Assembly: GCF_023333585.1 (NCBI RefSeq)
Contig: NZ_JAIQZN010000004.1
Coordinates: forward strand, 62,001-126,000
Reading direction: 5' to 3'
Length of the DNA: 64,000 bases
Source of the DNA: Argonema antarcticum A004/B2
GTDB lineage: Bacteria; Cyanobacteriota; Cyanobacteriia; Cyanobacteriales; Aerosakkonemataceae
Position numbers and translations under genes: made by a program
Notes under the pieces: generated by a model
The model's database searches: none
Seen by the model: only the letters and a program-made list of their open reading frames with translations
Told to the model about the DNA's origin: nothing
Shown here: piece by piece, positions 17,207-61,142 of the stretch
How positions within the stretch are numbered: position 1 is the stretch's first letter
Layout: each line of letters starts with the position of its first letter

Positions 17207-17324
17207 CTAGTGCCGAAGAGCGGAAGTCAAAAGTCAAAAGTCAAAAGTCAAAAATCCTTAGAGTGTCAGGCATTTAACTACTTCTGAACTGGTGGGTTAT
17301 TTCTGCCGCGCCGCACTCTTAGGC
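17207..17324 (-). mobile_element. CTAGTGC-bounded small dispersed element, copy A
   Basis: About 118 bases running from CTAGTGCCGAAGAGCGG to CCGCACTCTTAG. Two further copies lie at 36369-36481 and 59015-59128 in the opposite orientation, sharing the core TCAGAAGTAGTTAAATG and an internal (AAAAGTC)n tract whose copy number differs between copies. The ends are short imperfect inverted repeats (CTAGTGC / GCAC-TAG). There is no coding capacity, so it would be a non-autonomous MITE-like element. This copy lies 42 bases upstream of the gyrase start. Confidence 0.8.
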
Positions 17325-22343: not shown

Positions 22344-22469
22344 AAAGTAAGTATTAAACAGCTAAATTAGGAGAGAAATATGCGAGCTAAAATTTTATTA
22401 GTAGATGATGAGCCTGCCATAGAAAGTCTAATGATTCAGAAATTTATAAAAAACGTCCGCGCCCAGGAA

Positions 22470-22596
22470 TAAGCTGCTACGCATTTAATTTGTATGTTTA
22501 GCGGGAGTGGGAGAGTGGGGGAGTGGGGGAGTGGGAGAGGAATTGAAGGTTTGATTGCCGGATTAGAAATATCCGAATTAGATGCGTGTTAGCTTA
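22470..22596 (+). mobile_element. 127-bp TAAGCT-ended MITE-like element, copy 1
   Basis: Begins TAAGCTGCTACGCATTTAAT and ends GATGCGTGTTAGCTTA. The ends are imperfect inverted repeats (18 of 23 positions match). All 127 bases are identical to copies at 55314-55440 and 57969-58095. A GGGAGTGGGAGAGTGGGG purine tract lies in the middle. No protein is encoded and no target duplication is clear. This copy interrupts a receiver gene and supplies its premature TAA. Confidence 0.9.
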
Positions 22597-36368: not shown

Positions 36369-36481
36369 CTAGTGCAGCGCGGCAGAAATAACCCATCAGT
36401 TCAGAAGTAGTTAAATGTCTGACAATCAAAAGATTTTTGACTTTTGACTTTTGACTTTTGACTTCCGCGTAGCGGCACTAG
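36369..36481 (+). mobile_element. CTAGTGC-bounded dispersed element, copy B
   Basis: 113 bases from CTAGTGCAGCGCGGCAGAAA to TAGCGGCACTAG. It matches copy C (59015-59128) and the inverse of copy A (17207-17324). It ends two bases before the 3' end of the convergent TauE/SafE gene, so the whole gap between the two genes is made of two elements. Confidence 0.85.
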
Positions 36482-53282: not shown

Positions 53283-55328
53283 TCAGCACTTTGCTATATT
53301 GGCTAAATTTCGCAGGGTTTGAGTTACCAGCACGAATAAGCTCTGCCAGTCTCCGGGTTGTGGCTGACGAAATAGTCGCATGGTCGGATACCAGGGACTG
53401 TCCTGTCGGTGAAGCATCCAACGCCAATCCGAGTCAAAAGGCAGCAATACCCAAACTTGTTTACCCAAAGCTCCAGCTAAATGAGCAACAGATGTGTCTA
53501 TGGTGATGACTAAATCCAACTGCGCTACGATCGCAGCTGTGTCGGCGAAGTCGTTGAGCAGATGACTCAAATTTTGCACGCAGGCTGTTTGCCGCAATAG
53601 GATTAGATCTTGTTCTTGGGGGTCTTTTTCAAGGCTGTAAAATGCAATTCCCGGTATATCTGTCAGTTTGAGGAAGTGAGAGAGGGGAGACGATCGCAAC
53701 TCGGCAGTCTTACCGCTAGAGTAGGTTGCCCAGACAATTCCCACTTTCAGTTTACTTTCAGAAGGAATTTCCAGTTCAATAGAAGATTCCGGCGGTGCTA
53801 GATAGGGAATTTGTGCGGGTACGTTTTCCAAGGTTGTACCCAATATCCACGGTAAGCTCATTAATGGTGCGTGAACGTCAAATTCAGGCAAAGTAGTATC
53901 CTGTACGATTAGTCGATCGATACAGGAAATACTCTCCAACAAGCGAATCAGCGATCGCGGACAATCCACTATCAGGCGACCACCATAAGCTGCTACTAAA
54001 GGAGCATAACGAATAAACTGAATCGTATCTCCTAACCCTTGCTCGGCGTGGAGTAGAATCGTTCGACCTTCGAGGCGAGATCCATCCCACAAAGGCTGAG
54101 GAAACTGACGAGGCGGCGTTTCTCCCCCTAACCAGCGGCTCTCGTACTCGGCAAATCCACGCTGTAAATCCCCCGCCAGCAGTAGGAGATAAGCTCTACT
54201 AAAGCGATCGCTCGGATTGAGTTGGCTGTTGGGTTGCAAGTAGGCTATTGCCTTTTCTACCTTGCCTTGAAATAGAAGTGCATGGGCTAGGTTGTTCTGG
54301 GTCATTGCTAGCTTGGGATTCAGAGCTAAGGCTTGACGATAGCAGACTAGAGCTTCCTCTATCTCCCCCCCATCCTCCAACGCATTGCCCAAGTTATTAT
54401 AAAACTCTGCCTGGTGAGGATTTAAAGCCAAAGCTTGACGGTAGCAGGCTAGAGCTTCCTGTAACTGCTTCTGCTGTTTCATCACGCCGCCCAAGTTGCT
54501 GTAAGCTTCGGCATAGTTTGGATCGAGGGCTAAGGCTTGTCGATAGCAAGTAATAGCTTCTTCTAGCTTTCCCAAATCTTTAAGCGTAACGCCCAAGTTG
54601 CTGTAAAGTACAGGATTATCTGGTTCCTGAACCAAAGCTTTCTGATAGCAATCAACAGCTTCTACTAGGCGACGCTGTTTGTACATAGCACCGCCCAAGT
54701 TATTATAAAGTAGGGCATCATCTGGTTTGAGCGCTAAGGCTTGCTGATAGCAGATAATGGCTTCTTCTAGCTCACCTTGCCCTAACCATACACTGCCCAA
54801 ATTGCTATAAGCGTCATCATAATTTGGATCGATAGTCAAGGCTTGATTGTAATAAGTAGTTGCCTCTGCCAATAATCCTTGTTCTTGAAGGACGATTCCC
54901 AGGCGATTGTGAAGTTCGGCATAGTTTGGTTCGAGCAATATAGCTTGCTGGTAGCAAGCGGTTGCTTCTGGCAACCGACCTTGTTCTTGCAGCGCCTTGC
55001 CCAGATTGTAGTACGCTCCAGCATGATTTGGTTCGAGTGCCAAAGTTTGTTGGTAGCAGACTAGAGCTTCCTCGACACGATTCTGCTCTTGCAGCGCCAT
55101 GCCCAAATTGTAATGAAAGTCTGCCACTCCAGGCGCAACTTCGATCGCTTTGCGAAAACATTCAATGGCTAGCTCGTGTTTACCAAGTCCAGTGGCTGTT
55201 ATCCCAAGTAATTGGAGCGCGTCGATATTATATGGCTCTTTTTGTAGAATTTGGCTATATATCTGCTCGGCTTGAGATAACCGACCAGCTTGATAATGTT
55301 GGAGAGCAGTTAATAAGCTGCTACGCAT
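53283..55328 (-). CDS. TPR-repeat protein with C-terminal glycosyltransferase-like domain
   Basis: 681 residues: about ten TPR units (about 1-360; for example LYNNLGGAMYKQRRLVEAVD) and a C-terminal domain (about 400-675) with LLHAEQGLGDTIQFIRYAPL, KVGIVWATYSSGK and DLVITIDTSVAHLAGALGKQ, which is the GT9/SPINDLY-like glycosyltransferase B-fold pattern found in many cyanobacterial TPR proteins. The expected activity is O-linked protein or surface glycan modification. The ATG at 55328 and the first five codons lie inside a 127-bp inserted element (55314-55440), so the original start was replaced. It has no normal Shine-Dalgarno sequence. Confidence 0.88.
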   Translation of the reverse strand: MRSSLLTALQHYQAGRLSQAEQIYSQILQKEPYNIDALQLLGITATGLGKHELAIECFRKAIEVAPGVADFHYNLGMALQEQNRVEEALVCYQQTLALEPNHAGAYYNLGKALQEQGRLPEATACYQQAILLEPNYAELHNRLGIVLQEQGLLAEATTYYNQALTIDPNYDDAYSNLGSVWLGQGELEEAIICYQQALALKPDDALLYNNLGGAMYKQRRLVEAVDCYQKALVQEPDNPVLYSNLGVTLKDLGKLEEAITCYRQALALDPNYAEAYSNLGGVMKQQKQLQEALACYRQALALNPHQAEFYNNLGNALEDGGEIEEALVCYRQALALNPKLAMTQNNLAHALLFQGKVEKAIAYLQPNSQLNPSDRFSRAYLLLLAGDLQRGFAEYESRWLGGETPPRQFPQPLWDGSRLEGRTILLHAEQGLGDTIQFIRYAPLVAAYGGRLIVDCPRSLIRLLESISCIDRLIVQDTTLPEFDVHAPLMSLPWILGTTLENVPAQIPYLAPPESSIELEIPSESKLKVGIVWATYSSGKTAELRSSPLSHFLKLTDIPGIAFYSLEKDPQEQDLILLRQTACVQNLSHLLNDFADTAAIVAQLDLVITIDTSVAHLAGALGKQVWVLLPFDSDWRWMLHRQDSPWYPTMRLFRQPQPGDWQSLFVLVTQTLRNLANIAKC

Positions 55329-55440
55329 TTAATTTGTATGTTTAGCGGGAGTGGGAGAGTGGGGGAGTGGGGGAGTGGGAGAGGAATTGAAGGTTTGATT
55401 GCCGGATTAGAAATATCCGAATTAGATGCGTGTTAGCTTA
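55314..55440 (+). mobile_element. 127-bp TAAGCT-ended element, copy 2
   Basis: Identical over 127 bases to 22470-22596 and, inverted, to 57969-58095. Read on the minus strand it ends ATGCGTAGCAGCTTA, which is the start of the TPR-glycosyltransferase gene. Confidence 0.92.
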
Positions 55441-57968: not shown

Positions 57969-58095
57969 TAAGCTAACACGCATCTAATTCGGATATTTCT
58001 AATCCGGCAATCAAACCTTCAATTCCTCTCCCACTCCCCCACTCCCCCACTCTCCCACTCCCGCTAAACATACAAATTAAATGCGTAGCAGCTTA
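57969..58095 (-). mobile_element. 127-bp TAAGCT-ended element, copy 3
   Basis: The exact reverse complement of the copies at 22470 and 55314. It lies in non-coding DNA between sir and the gene at 58549 and disrupts nothing obvious. Confidence 0.92.
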
Positions 58096-58548
58096 TGTAG
58101 TTGGTTGGCAGAAAGAGTCCTCCTTGTCCCCGATCGGCACCTTACCATAAATAGTAAAGATTTATTAAGCAATGTCAATAAATCTTGCAATGATTCTCAT
58201 AAAAGTTCATAATCAAATTTGAACAGAAATGTTGAGCTATGTTCTTAACCCTACCCATAACGCAAGTTTGGGTACAGTTAGCGAAACCAATATAATTGCT
58301 TAGCATCCTTGTTTTCGATACAATCTTTCTCAGTACAGCATTAAGTTGGCACGACGCACAAGTTTTTGTTTCACGGGAGTGTTCGAGGGCAAAAATTCCC
58401 AAGACACGCTGAGAACGCCAGTTTTTCCGGTAACGCTAAATTTATTAGCGAAAAAATACCTAACTATAATATTTGATTTAGTTAGGGTGCGTTCAATTAA
58501 AAGACTCACTTCTTTTAGTCCACTCGCTAATTTTCAGGAGTATTGGCA
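58096..58548. other. Intergenic region, nothing recognised
   Basis: 453 bases before the gene at 58549. Short open frames on both strands (58175-58402 minus, 58346-58588 plus) have no plausible start sites or protein-like composition and are not called. AGGAG at 58536-58540 serves the next gene. Confidence 0.5.
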
Positions 58549-59037
58549 ATGTTTGGTTTTATCAAAAACTTTTTTGGCGGAATATTAGGCTTTTTTGGTG
58601 GCATTTTTAGCTTCGGGAAATCCAAGAAGCAAGACAAATCAAACGCTCTAAAAACTCGTAAGGGTGGATACTACCTAGAATTGGATGAATCGCAAGTCCC
58701 TAAGACAGATAATGGGAGTAAACCTGCTGCCGCCAAGGCAGTGAAAACAGAGTCAGAGCCAGCGCCAAAGCCAGAACCGGCTAAAACTCCAGCCGCAGTA
58801 GCTACAGCTGCACCTGCTAAAGTGGAATCAGCGCCAAAGCCGGAACCAGCAAAAGCAGCTGCACCCGCAGCCAGTGCTAACGGAAAAAAAGAACCCCAGG
58901 CAAAACCGACATTTGCTGCCAATGATTTGTCTATTGTCTCAAACACAAACGGTCGCCGACGTCCGGGTGCTAATATGAACTCGTTCCTGGATATGGCTCG
59001 TCAGGTGAAAACCTCTAGTGCAGCGCGGCAGAAATAA
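58549..59037 (+). CDS. Small Ala/Pro-rich hypothetical protein
   Basis: 162 residues; ATG at 58549 follows AGGAG with normal spacing. The N terminus MFGFIKNFFGGILGFFGGIF is an amphipathic, glycine-rich membrane-associating segment, followed by KSKKQDKSNALKTRKGGYYL, a long Ala/Pro/Lys/Glu linker (about 65-125) and a conserved-looking GRRRPGANMNSFLDMARQVK. The last residues (SSAARQK) and the stop are encoded by a dispersed element (59015-59128), so the natural C terminus has been altered. It may be a membrane-tethered scaffold; function unknown. Confidence 0.8.
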   Translation: MFGFIKNFFGGILGFFGGIFSFGKSKKQDKSNALKTRKGGYYLELDESQVPKTDNGSKPAAAKAVKTESEPAPKPEPAKTPAAVATAAPAKVESAPKPEPAKAAAPAASANGKKEPQAKPTFAANDLSIVSNTNGRRRPGANMNSFLDMARQVKTSSAARQK

Positions 59038-59128
59038 CCCCCCAGTTCATAAGTAGTTAAATGCCTGAAACTCAAAGGATTTTTGACTTTTGAATGAGTG
59101 ACTTTTGACTTCCGCTCTTCGGCACTAG
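59015..59128 (+). mobile_element. CTAGTGC-bounded dispersed element, copy C
   Basis: 114 bases from CTAGTGCAGCGCGGCAGAAA to TCGGCACTAG. The left end supplies the last codons and TAA of the 58549 gene. The right-end CTAG supplies the TAG stop of the convergent TPR gene (59125-59127). It matches copies A and B but carries a different AAAAGTC count. Confidence 0.9.
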
Positions 59129-60210
59129 GTAGGGCTTGAGGGAAAATATCTGAGGAAGACTAGACCGCTATACAATTGGAAGGCTGGGTCCCAGTGGGAG
59201 TCAGCCCTCCTCAACAGCTCGATGTGGGATGGAAGACGGTCTAAAAGTTCTGTTCGATCGAGCGCTGTCTCGGCAAACTGGGTGAAATCAGACAAGAGTT
59301 TGGCGTGAGGCAGTTGAGAATTGAGGAACTCGATTAAGCGGTTCCAGTTTCTTCTGTTAGTAGGCATATCCTCTTGAGCGGAAAAATCAATCCCCTGCTG
59401 GAACTCGTAGGCGCTATCGTAAATTCGCAAAATGGAACGCCTGCTGGGTAGGTGCAGGTCGCAAAATTGGGAGTAGTCTTGGGTTTGTACTTTGCGTTCC
59501 AATCTCTTGAGAAAGTCGTGATCGACGACTTCTTCAAAGATTGGTAACCGTGCTTGGATAACTTGGCGTACTTCGCTCCATTGAAAGCCAAAGGAACCCA
59601 TCTGATTTTTGTCGTTGTAGCAAACGACAGTGGGTTGGGGAGAGAGTGACTGGAAATGGCTGACGCGAAAAATGTTGATTTTTTGAATATCAGCTAGTGT
59701 TGCACAAAAGTTGGGTATTTTTGCACTGAGCAATTCTTGAGCGTAAAGTCGCAGTTCTCCGATCGCACCTGTACGATATAGCCGCCAACCTCGACTCGGT
59801 AGTAGTAGCCGCGCTTTGTATGGATCGAGGTTCATAATCCGGGCAAAACTTTTGGCGGCTTGGGTTTTGGCTTCGCTGTCGATCGGTTCTAAAATTAAGA
59901 CGCCTAATTGAGTATTGTTGGGGTCGGTTTTAGCTTGGACGATCGCTTCTTGGCGTCGTTGTTTTTCATTTTTTTCCAGACGCTGCAATCCTTGGCGAGA
60001 TCCAGCCATAATCTTGGCGATCGTTGTGCTACACAGCAGCTGGCGATAAGTTTTTTCTGCCGCTTCTGATTTGCCAGTTACTTCGTGCAGGCGTGCGATG
60101 TAAAATTGCACCCAAGGGTTTTCGGGCGATTCTTTGACCAGTTGTTTGAGTAAGCGGGCTGCTTCTCGATAATCTTTGCTCTCAAACGCTGCTGCGACTC
60201 GATCGATCAT
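59125..60210 (-). CDS. TPR-containing hypothetical protein
   Basis: 361 residues. Residues 1-95 hold two TPR-like units (DYREAARLLKQLVKESPENP and QFYIARLHEVTGKSEAAEKT). The rest is an alpha/beta region with LLLPSRGWRLYRTGAIGELR and VVCYNDKNQMGSFGFQWSEV that I do not assign to a known family. It lies 47 bases after rsmE on the same strand and is probably co-transcribed, a pairing that suggests a translation- or stress-related role without proving it. The stop codon comes from the inserted element. Confidence 0.8.
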   Translation of the reverse strand: MIDRVAAAFESKDYREAARLLKQLVKESPENPWVQFYIARLHEVTGKSEAAEKTYRQLLCSTTIAKIMAGSRQGLQRLEKNEKQRRQEAIVQAKTDPNNTQLGVLILEPIDSEAKTQAAKSFARIMNLDPYKARLLLPSRGWRLYRTGAIGELRLYAQELLSAKIPNFCATLADIQKINIFRVSHFQSLSPQPTVVCYNDKNQMGSFGFQWSEVRQVIQARLPIFEEVVDHDFLKRLERKVQTQDYSQFCDLHLPSRRSILRIYDSAYEFQQGIDFSAQEDMPTNRRNWNRLIEFLNSQLPHAKLLSDFTQFAETALDRTELLDRLPSHIELLRRADSHWDPAFQLYSGLVFLRYFPSSPT

Positions 60211-60257: not shown

Positions 60258-61142
60258 TTACCCTTCTTTCTTCATTATTGTTCCCATTTCTGAGGTTCCT
60301 GCTACCAGGGACAGGGCGACAATCGGTGCAAGTACGGCTGTAAGGATGCGGCGACCGAGAGAAACTGGTTGGAAAGAGGCGGCGCAAGCTTTTTCTATCT
60401 CTGCATCTGTCCATCCTCCCTCTGGCCCGGTGGCGATCGTTAGTGCTGTTAGTGCTGAGTGGGGAGTGGGGAGTGCTGAGTGCTGAGTGCTGAGTGGGGA
60501 GTGGGGAGTGGGGAGTGGGGAGTGCTGAGTGCTGAGTGCTGAGTGCTGAGTAGGGAGTGCTGAGTGGGGAGTGTGGATTAGGCAATCGAGTAAATGGGGA
60601 TAGTCGCCACGCGCAACGCAGATATATTGGGAAGTGGGGACTGGGGAATTCTCCTCTACAGCACTGTTTGATTCTTGACAAAATGCTAAAGCTGTGTTGT
60701 AAGAAACGGGATCGAGAATTGTTGGCACAATTTGGCGTTCTGATTGTTCGGCTGCTTCAGTGACAATCCGCCGCCAGCGTTCTAGTTTTTGGGGGCTGGG
60801 TTTGAGCAGGGTGCGATCGCTTATTGTCGGTATTATACAAGTTACCCCCAGTTCTGTAACCTGACGGACAACATCGTCAAATCCGTTTCCTTTCGGCAAG
60901 GCTACCATGAGGGTGACGGCTACTGGTAACTCAGTTTGGACAGAAATCGGCTCTAAGATTTCCGCTTGCTCTCCTTGTAGTTTAGCCAACCACCATTGTC
61001 CTTGTCCGTTCATGGCAATAAAGCGATCGCCTGTTTCCAACCGCAACACTCGACTGAGGTAGTGCTGTTGCGGCGCAGTTAGGGAAATTTGCCGATCTTG
61101 GAGTTGGGAGGGTGCGATCGCCAACCGTTGCAACTGAGTCAA
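60258..61142 (-). CDS. rsmE: 16S rRNA (uracil-1498-N3)-methyltransferase RsmE with repeat insertion
   Basis: A SPOUT-class methyltransferase modifying U1498 of 16S rRNA in the decoding region. 294 residues: an N-terminal PUA-like RNA-binding part (RQISLTAPQQHYLSRVLRLE, GDRFIAMNG), TLMVALPKGNGFDDVVRQVT, and the knotted SAM-binding IATGPEGGWTDAEIEKA with SLGRRILTA. Between about residues 190 and 233 it carries an in-frame tract of SALPTQHSALSTQHSPLPTP-type repeats from (GTGCTGAGTGGGGA)n DNA at 60441-60574, absent from the family. Start is TTG at 61142 with GGAG upstream. Confidence 0.92.
   Translation of the reverse strand: MTQLQRLAIAPSQLQDRQISLTAPQQHYLSRVLRLETGDRFIAMNGQGQWWLAKLQGEQAEILEPISVQTELPVAVTLMVALPKGNGFDDVVRQVTELGVTCIIPTISDRTLLKPSPQKLERWRRIVTEAAEQSERQIVPTILDPVSYNTALAFCQESNSAVEENSPVPTSQYICVARGDYPHLLDCLIHTPHSALPTQHSALSTQHSPLPTPHSPLSTQHSALPTPHSALTALTIATGPEGGWTDAEIEKACAASFQPVSLGRRILTAVLAPIVALSLVAGTSEMGTIMKKEG
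60441..60574. repeat. Heptamer repeat array inside rsmE
   Basis: Roughly nineteen heptamers of the types GTGCTGA and GTGGGGA in tandem, all within the rsmE reading frame. The frame is kept open through the array, giving a Ser/Pro/His/Thr-rich loop. Confidence 0.93.

Follow-up and report, generated by a model that had tools for sequence, protein, structure and literature searches.

A putative IS630-type MITE inserted at the overlapping ends of two convergent genes in Argonema antarcticum, and the enrichment of its family at amber stop codons

Introduction

When two convergent genes are separated by a repeat and nothing else, did the repeat give both genes their stop codons, or did it arrive between stops that were already there? 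The question is raised by a locus of Argonema antarcticum A004/B2, lying in a window of 64,000 nt (the whole stretch of DNA that was analysed) of the draft assembly of this strain, referred to below as G000. A first-pass annotation of this DNA had proposed that a mobile element, here called element C, fills the gap between the two genes and supplies the end of both of them, i.e., the last residues and TAA of one and the TAG of the other. Here, the locus is compared with relatives of the same genus (G001 and G002) and of the same family (G006 and G007), and the behaviour of other copies of the element at stop codons is quantified.

Results

The site of element C and the two genes that meet there

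The left gene begins with an ATG at 58549 and runs to 59037 on the plus strand. It codes for a hypothetical cyanobacterial protein that has no Pfam match, and its open reading frame ends in KTS-SAARQK followed by a TAA at 59035-59037. On the minus strand, a gene for a TPR protein (TPR_19; 59125..60210) runs from 60210 to 59125, with its TAG at 59127-59125. The tetranucleotide CTAG is present at 59015-59018 and at 59125-59128, and the 87 nt separating the two stops all lie within element C, which spans 59015..59128 on the plus strand when both flanking CTAGs are counted in. The element thus fills the convergent gap, as had been proposed from the sequence and its open reading frames. An Rfam scan of the window found no family reaching its gathering score, and a search for tRNA and tmRNA found none.

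TA duplication is established for the IS630 family, with ISY100 of Synechocystis as a cyanobacterial example (PMC2170065). Under a model of TA duplication, and with bounds taken from the empty-site alignment described below, the body of element C would comprise 108 bp (59018..59125, plus strand; GTGC...GCAC). It would be bordered by two copies of a presumed target duplication, i.e., the TA at 59016..59017 within the left CTAG and the TA at 59126..59127, the latter being read on the minus strand as the T and A that open the TPR gene's TAG.

The empty site in relatives

Comparison of the gene ends showed that element C is missing at the orthologous site in G001, G002 and G006. G001 and G002 read AAA ACT TCT AGG TAG GGC at this place, with a single CTAG where G000 has two, and G006 reads ACT TCT AAA TAG CAT. 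In all three genomes the left gene and the TPR gene overlap tail to tail by 8 bp (CTAGGTAG or CTAAATAG), with the left gene ending KTSR* or KTSK* and the TAG of the TPR gene read from the same bases on the opposite strand. In G000, CTAG flanks the insert on both sides and the two BLAST halves share exactly 4 bases. Between the empty and the filled site, the TA within CTAG is duplicated, and a 4-bp duplication of CTAG would look identical. Because these three relatives lack the element and have the genes overlapping by 8 bp, the insertion of element C is the derived state, and since no gap existed before the insertion, the present gap consists of element C alone. Its absence from the three orthologous sites, together with its IS630-type ends, supports the earlier view that the element is mobile.

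A supplied stop and a preserved stop

Upon insertion, the end of the left gene changed from KTS-R-TAG to KTS-SAARQK-TAA. The longer tail is absent from the nine relatives inspected, which end KTSR*, KTSK*, KTR*, KTK*, KTPS* or KTPG*, in line with what the first-pass annotation had expected. The annotation had assigned the whole of SSAARQK and the TAA to the element; the last six residues, SAARQK, and the TAA are indeed read from element C, but the first S is coded by the host and the second is a hybrid codon.

The TPR gene gives a different answer. It ends FPSSPT-TAG in G001 and G002 and SNAI-TAG, in the same place, in G006, all of them without the element. The half of the claim that derived its stop from the element fails, because the same C terminus occurs in genomes that lack the element, which was the test that the annotation itself had put forward. 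The TAG of the TPR gene was thus preserved by element C and not supplied by it. Under the TA-duplication model, the TA of this TAG would be target DNA and only the G would be the terminal base of the element, restoring the base that was there before.

Preserved and supplied stops both occur across the sites of the family. At a Peptidase_S13 gene, the TAG is shared by G001 and G006, which lack the element there; the stop was therefore preserved. At a TetR gene, G002 and G006 end ARN(N/G)EIELD with a stop of their own and G000 ends ARNGEEG-TAG at the element; here, the stop is supplied by the element and the tail is shortened. At a GHMP kinase gene, the element is present in G000 and G002, and the end of the gene differs in G006.

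Copies, ends and spread of the family

The repeat of ~110 bp that the annotation had recognised by the word CTAGTGC is real, but the bare heptamer is not clearly above chance in the window: it occurs 10 times against a mean of 5.96 expected, 7 of 100 shuffles reach 10, and CTAGTGC alone was rejected as an enriched word. Copy B (36369..36481, plus strand) is 91% identical to C over 81 nt and is also present in G002 at the orthologous place, and copy A (17207..17317, inverted, on the minus strand; 94% over 77 nt) has the AGAG-type left end of a subfamily. In G000, element C has 45 BLAST matches, some of them to the heptad part alone, and the left-end motif is found at 23 places and the right-end motif at 24, with 0 for the control patterns. 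The element is short (~108 bp), non-coding and multi-copy, as a MITE is.

From 70 stretches, 24 were dropped, which left 46 copies with both ends recognised; duplicates were kept in this set (L063 and L161 are one place), and deduplication reduces it to 38. CTAG stands at the left end of 32 of the 46, at the right end of 34 and at both ends of 25, and 7 have AGAG in place of CTAG at the left end. The subfamily in which the left end CCTAAGAGTGC replaces CTAGTGC includes 17207-17317 and the loci L002, L003, L011, L013, L019, L020 and L026, and its copies often adjoin CTAGCCC heptad arrays.

The right end corresponds to the left end in diverged form, and the two make up an imperfect inverted repeat. 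Folded as RNA, copies B and C give a single long stem-loop (z -1.8 to -4.3), and copy A is near its shuffles (z -0.6 and -1.4). At the left end of copies B and C, translation in the other two frames is halted after 6 or 13 codons.

The right-end motif was found in 9 of the 60 genomes searched. In G051, G024 and G043, elements with the same layout have a different inner sequence. These related MITE-like elements of other families (L274, L283 and L318 in G051, L293 in G024, L294 in G043) have the right end CTAGTACCGCT..GCGGAAGTCA and variable left ends, mostly finishing in CTAG. A MITE-like stretch of ~90 bp in G008 (L134; G008:C285) shares the left end and has a different right end.

IS630 affiliation

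In G007, the end of the element is found at both termini of a 1478-bp IS (CTAGs counted in). Copies B and C agree with the end of this IS at 34 of their first 35 bp, and the terminal repeat of the IS is 77 bp long, with 76 of 77 positions matching between its two ends. The right end of the element has the outer bases and a diverged inner part in common with the IS, and nothing more. Two overlapping frames of the IS match DDE_3 (PF13358; E 6e-20) and HTH_32 (E 2e-10), and against the IS630 transposase model NF033545 they score E 3e-24 and 3e-11, each half staying below the NCBIfam cut-off for the whole protein. In G006, a transposase fragment and a similar end lie on one contig.

Nothing in the draft assembly of G000 matches the G007 transposase, nor was an IS630 element with such ends, which could be the autonomous partner, recognised in it; a MITE need not have such a partner in its own genome. 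A resident IS630 was considered as mobiliser and rejected: G000 has four DDE_3 matches, and the two intact-looking ones have other terminal repeats. A longer IS was also sought in nine left-end stretches of G004, G005 and G008 (left end under the pattern in five, two of these near contig ends; open reading frames listed for three loci), and nothing beyond MITE-like length was recognised there. Judging from its ends, element C is best described as a non-autonomous, IS630-type (Tc1/mariner superfamily) MITE, with no partner recognised in the draft assembly.

Docking at stop codons

The annotation had suggested looking genome-wide for a habit of CTAG stops at other copies, and such a habit exists at the right end but not at the left. 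The right-end motif, read from the gene, was TAGTGCCGCTACGCGGAAGTCA with at most 3 mismatches, and it was applied to sequence stretches from nine genomes. An end was called docked when an open reading frame of at least 100 codons stopped exactly at it; the frames were called mechanically, and among the docked ones are several short ones (101-164 codons) that are possibly not genes. Under these rules, the motif was present at 98 places, 27 of them docked exactly (26 under a longest-ORF rule). With 4 bases of its loop deviating from the pattern, copy C is not counted in the 98.

Once shared sites had been counted as one, docking was seen for 21 of 86 right ends and for 1 of 48 left ends (p = 5e-4); at or within 30 nt of a stop, the numbers were 35 of 86 and 3 of 48 (p = 9e-6). 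The left-end counts are a partial sample, as G000 is the only genome scanned throughout for the left-end motif, and left ends elsewhere came from stretches retrieved for other purposes. Two comparisons treat the ends fairly. One is that within G000, scanned throughout for both motifs: the docked fractions were 7/24 right and 1/23 left (p = 0.048), and those at or within 30 nt of a stop were 11/24 and 2/23 (p = 0.008). The other takes the 38 unique complete elements, each with both of its ends: 6 were docked by the right end and none by the left (p = 0.03), with 14 right and 1 left at or within 30 nt of the stop of an open reading frame (p = 0.001).

For the background, 463 kb of G000 were used, in which 30 of 2482 CTAG strand-sites are such stops. 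Set against non-coding CTAG strand-sites (~30/708, ~4%, i.e., 30 docked strand-sites over twice the 354 stop and non-coding CTAG sites, all from G000), the right ends of the nine genomes were enriched at stops (21/86, p = 4e-9; p = 9e-5 for G000 only), and the left ends were not (p = 0.7). Members of the family are enriched at amber stops preceded by C, via their right end. The docked proteins that were scanned (n = 7) all have a Pfam match, namely ATP synthase alpha/beta, CobW/HypB/UreG, FGGY kinase, ABC transporter, GHMP kinase, Peptidase_S13 and TetR.

Discussion

Proposed insertion mechanism

Considering the derived insertion, the duplicated CTAG, the ends of both genes and the IS630-type relative with the same end, all documented above, we regard it as very probable that an IS630-type MITE inserted in the CTAG of the 8-bp gene overlap with duplication of TA, keeping the stop of the TPR gene and giving the left gene a new end. 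An IS630-associated transposon reportedly prefers the TA in CTAG as its target (Tenzen and Ohtsubo 1991, as cited in PMC2170065). A transposase, presumably acting in trans, would insert the element at the TA within the CTAG of the overlap CTAGGTAG, and duplication of this TA, which we infer to be the duplicated unit rather than CTAG, would rebuild CTAG at both junctions. The TPR gene, with its amber codon inside the target CTAG, would keep its stop, and the left gene, in another frame, would read six codons of the element and then the TAA of the element. As CTAG is a palindrome that holds TAG on both strands and is rebuilt twice, a gene with an amber stop would be left untouched in either orientation of the element, and an amber stop preceded by C would thus be an insertion site without cost to the upstream gene.

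This mechanism explains the observations in part. It accounts for the tolerance at gene ends, but the palindrome predicts docking by both ends, and docking is observed nearly always at the right end only. Further points against the account are the TetR site, where the stop is new and not preserved, the lack of a matching transposase in the draft assembly of G000, the scores of both halves of the G007 transposase below the whole-protein cut-off, the diverged right end and the AGAG left ends of 7 of the 46 copies. One addition to the mechanism would be that the right end is a portable gene-end module, in which UAG is immediately followed by a small stem-loop CCGCUACGCGG, retained at gene 3' ends in a single orientation for its effect of terminating or protecting the mRNA, with gene ends repeatedly written or rewritten in several cyanobacterial families. 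We consider this full version doubtful, and retain from it the small hairpin beside the stop, in right-end orientation, as a candidate for a selected 3'-end structure.

On the other hand, docking could reflect survival bias alone, if insertions at other places disrupted genes or promoters and did not persist. Sites where an insertion is tolerated are few, because 922 of 1276 sampled CTAG sites lie inside open reading frames of at least 100 codons, and some of the docked stops look natural. The enrichment persists, however, against non-coding CTAGs. Purging of harmful insertions would also be expected to affect both ends equally, but in complete copies the right end falls at or within 30 nt of a stop 14 times and the left end once. 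We hold this explanation to be plausible, while leaning somewhat against it.

Much less probable is an IS200/IS605-like origin (REP or PATE-type), in which CTAG would be the tetranucleotide that is cleaved, at the base of hairpins at the ends, and the target would not be duplicated. The palindromic right end (CCGCTACGCGG) and the similar action of GTAG REPs at stops agree with such an element, and one CTAG in the empty and two in the filled site would also be expected if it carried CTAG at one end; the full-length relative with the same end, however, carries a DDE_3/IS630 transposase and not a Y1 one, and its inverted repeats are long. We judge equally improbable an IS5-type MITE with a true 4-bp duplication of CTAG, like MITEPsy1 of Pseudomonas syringae, which is 100 nt long and duplicates CTAG or YTAA (PMC3189936). 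The sequence at element C fits a TA or a CTAG duplication alike, but the transposase of the IS that shares its end is of the IS630 type. The least credible alternative is that element C stood at this site in the ancestor and that the relatives lost it precisely: Tc1/mariner-type elements are able to excise, and another site in G001 offers a possible excision footprint, but clean losses would be needed in G001, G002 and the outgroup-like G006, with the 8-bp overlap restored each time. At that other site (L258; G001:C379), 3' of the Peptidase_S13 gene, G001 has TAGATCTAG where G000 carries the element, which is possibly an excision footprint, or else an older variant.

With insertion of an IS630-type MITE as the preferred account, the locus offers a base-by-base case of a mobile element entering overlapping gene ends, without spare DNA, and destroying neither gene. 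The palindromic CTAG would give each strand its amber stop back, and the other frames are capped by stop codons that come early in the left end. The one-sided habit of this MITE at stops is measurable, with the C terminus sometimes altered (the left gene here, the TetR gene elsewhere), and it allows a test of whether such elements are passengers that are tolerated or 3'-end structures under selection.

Comparison with known systems

RUP of Streptococcus pneumoniae is a MITE of ~107 bp related to IS630-Spn1, and it resembles the element in its size, its non-coding nature, its ends resembling those of an IS630-family IS and its proposed mobilisation in trans (PMC3049150). It differs in sequence and host, and the portion of its description available to us contains no CTAG targeting or docking at stop codons (PMC3049150). 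Duplication of TA, presumed for the element, would be shared with IS630 and ISY100, which differ in being autonomous, with their own transposase; stop-codon docking is not mentioned in the available portion of that source (PMC2170065).

The GTAG-tagged REPs are palindromes of 20-40 bp linked to RAYT (IS200/IS605-type), with cyanobacteria among their hosts; they lie mostly 3' of genes, and their termini often give the flanking open reading frames a TAG stop (PMC3733652). The element studied here differs in its length of ~108 bp, its IS630-type ends and the two CTAGs that flank 25 of 46 copies. It is not a 20-40 bp palindrome with a terminal GTAG, and it shares with these REPs the termini at TAG stops (21 of 86 unique right ends), a similarity of behaviour and not of membership. 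In IS870 of Agrobacterium, a CTAG target yields a stop codon. There, the target completes the open reading frame of the IS itself, whereas here the target and the element end host genes.

IS630-type MITEs (RUP; PMC3049150) and repeats with TAG-supplying termini (GTAG REPs; PMC3733652) were thus already known from these sources. A literature search over titles and listings, with most subscription papers outside its coverage, returned no description of the element or its motif. As far as these listings show, the novelty lies in the MITE family itself, in its one-sided docking and in an insertion resolved within a pair of overlapping genes.

Other repeats in the window

A second small element is present in the window in three copies that are identical over ~128 nt (22468-22596 and 55312-55440 on the plus strand, 57969-58096 on the minus strand). 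Its ends, TAAGCTGCTACGCAT...ATGCGTGTTAGCTTA, form an imperfect inverted repeat with TA at both ends, and the identity of the copies suggests that it may have moved recently. Besides, the minus-strand gene at 60258-61142, which resembles rsmE, codes for a protein with an internal, in-frame stretch of ~45 residues encoded by heptad repeats (HSALPTQ-like).
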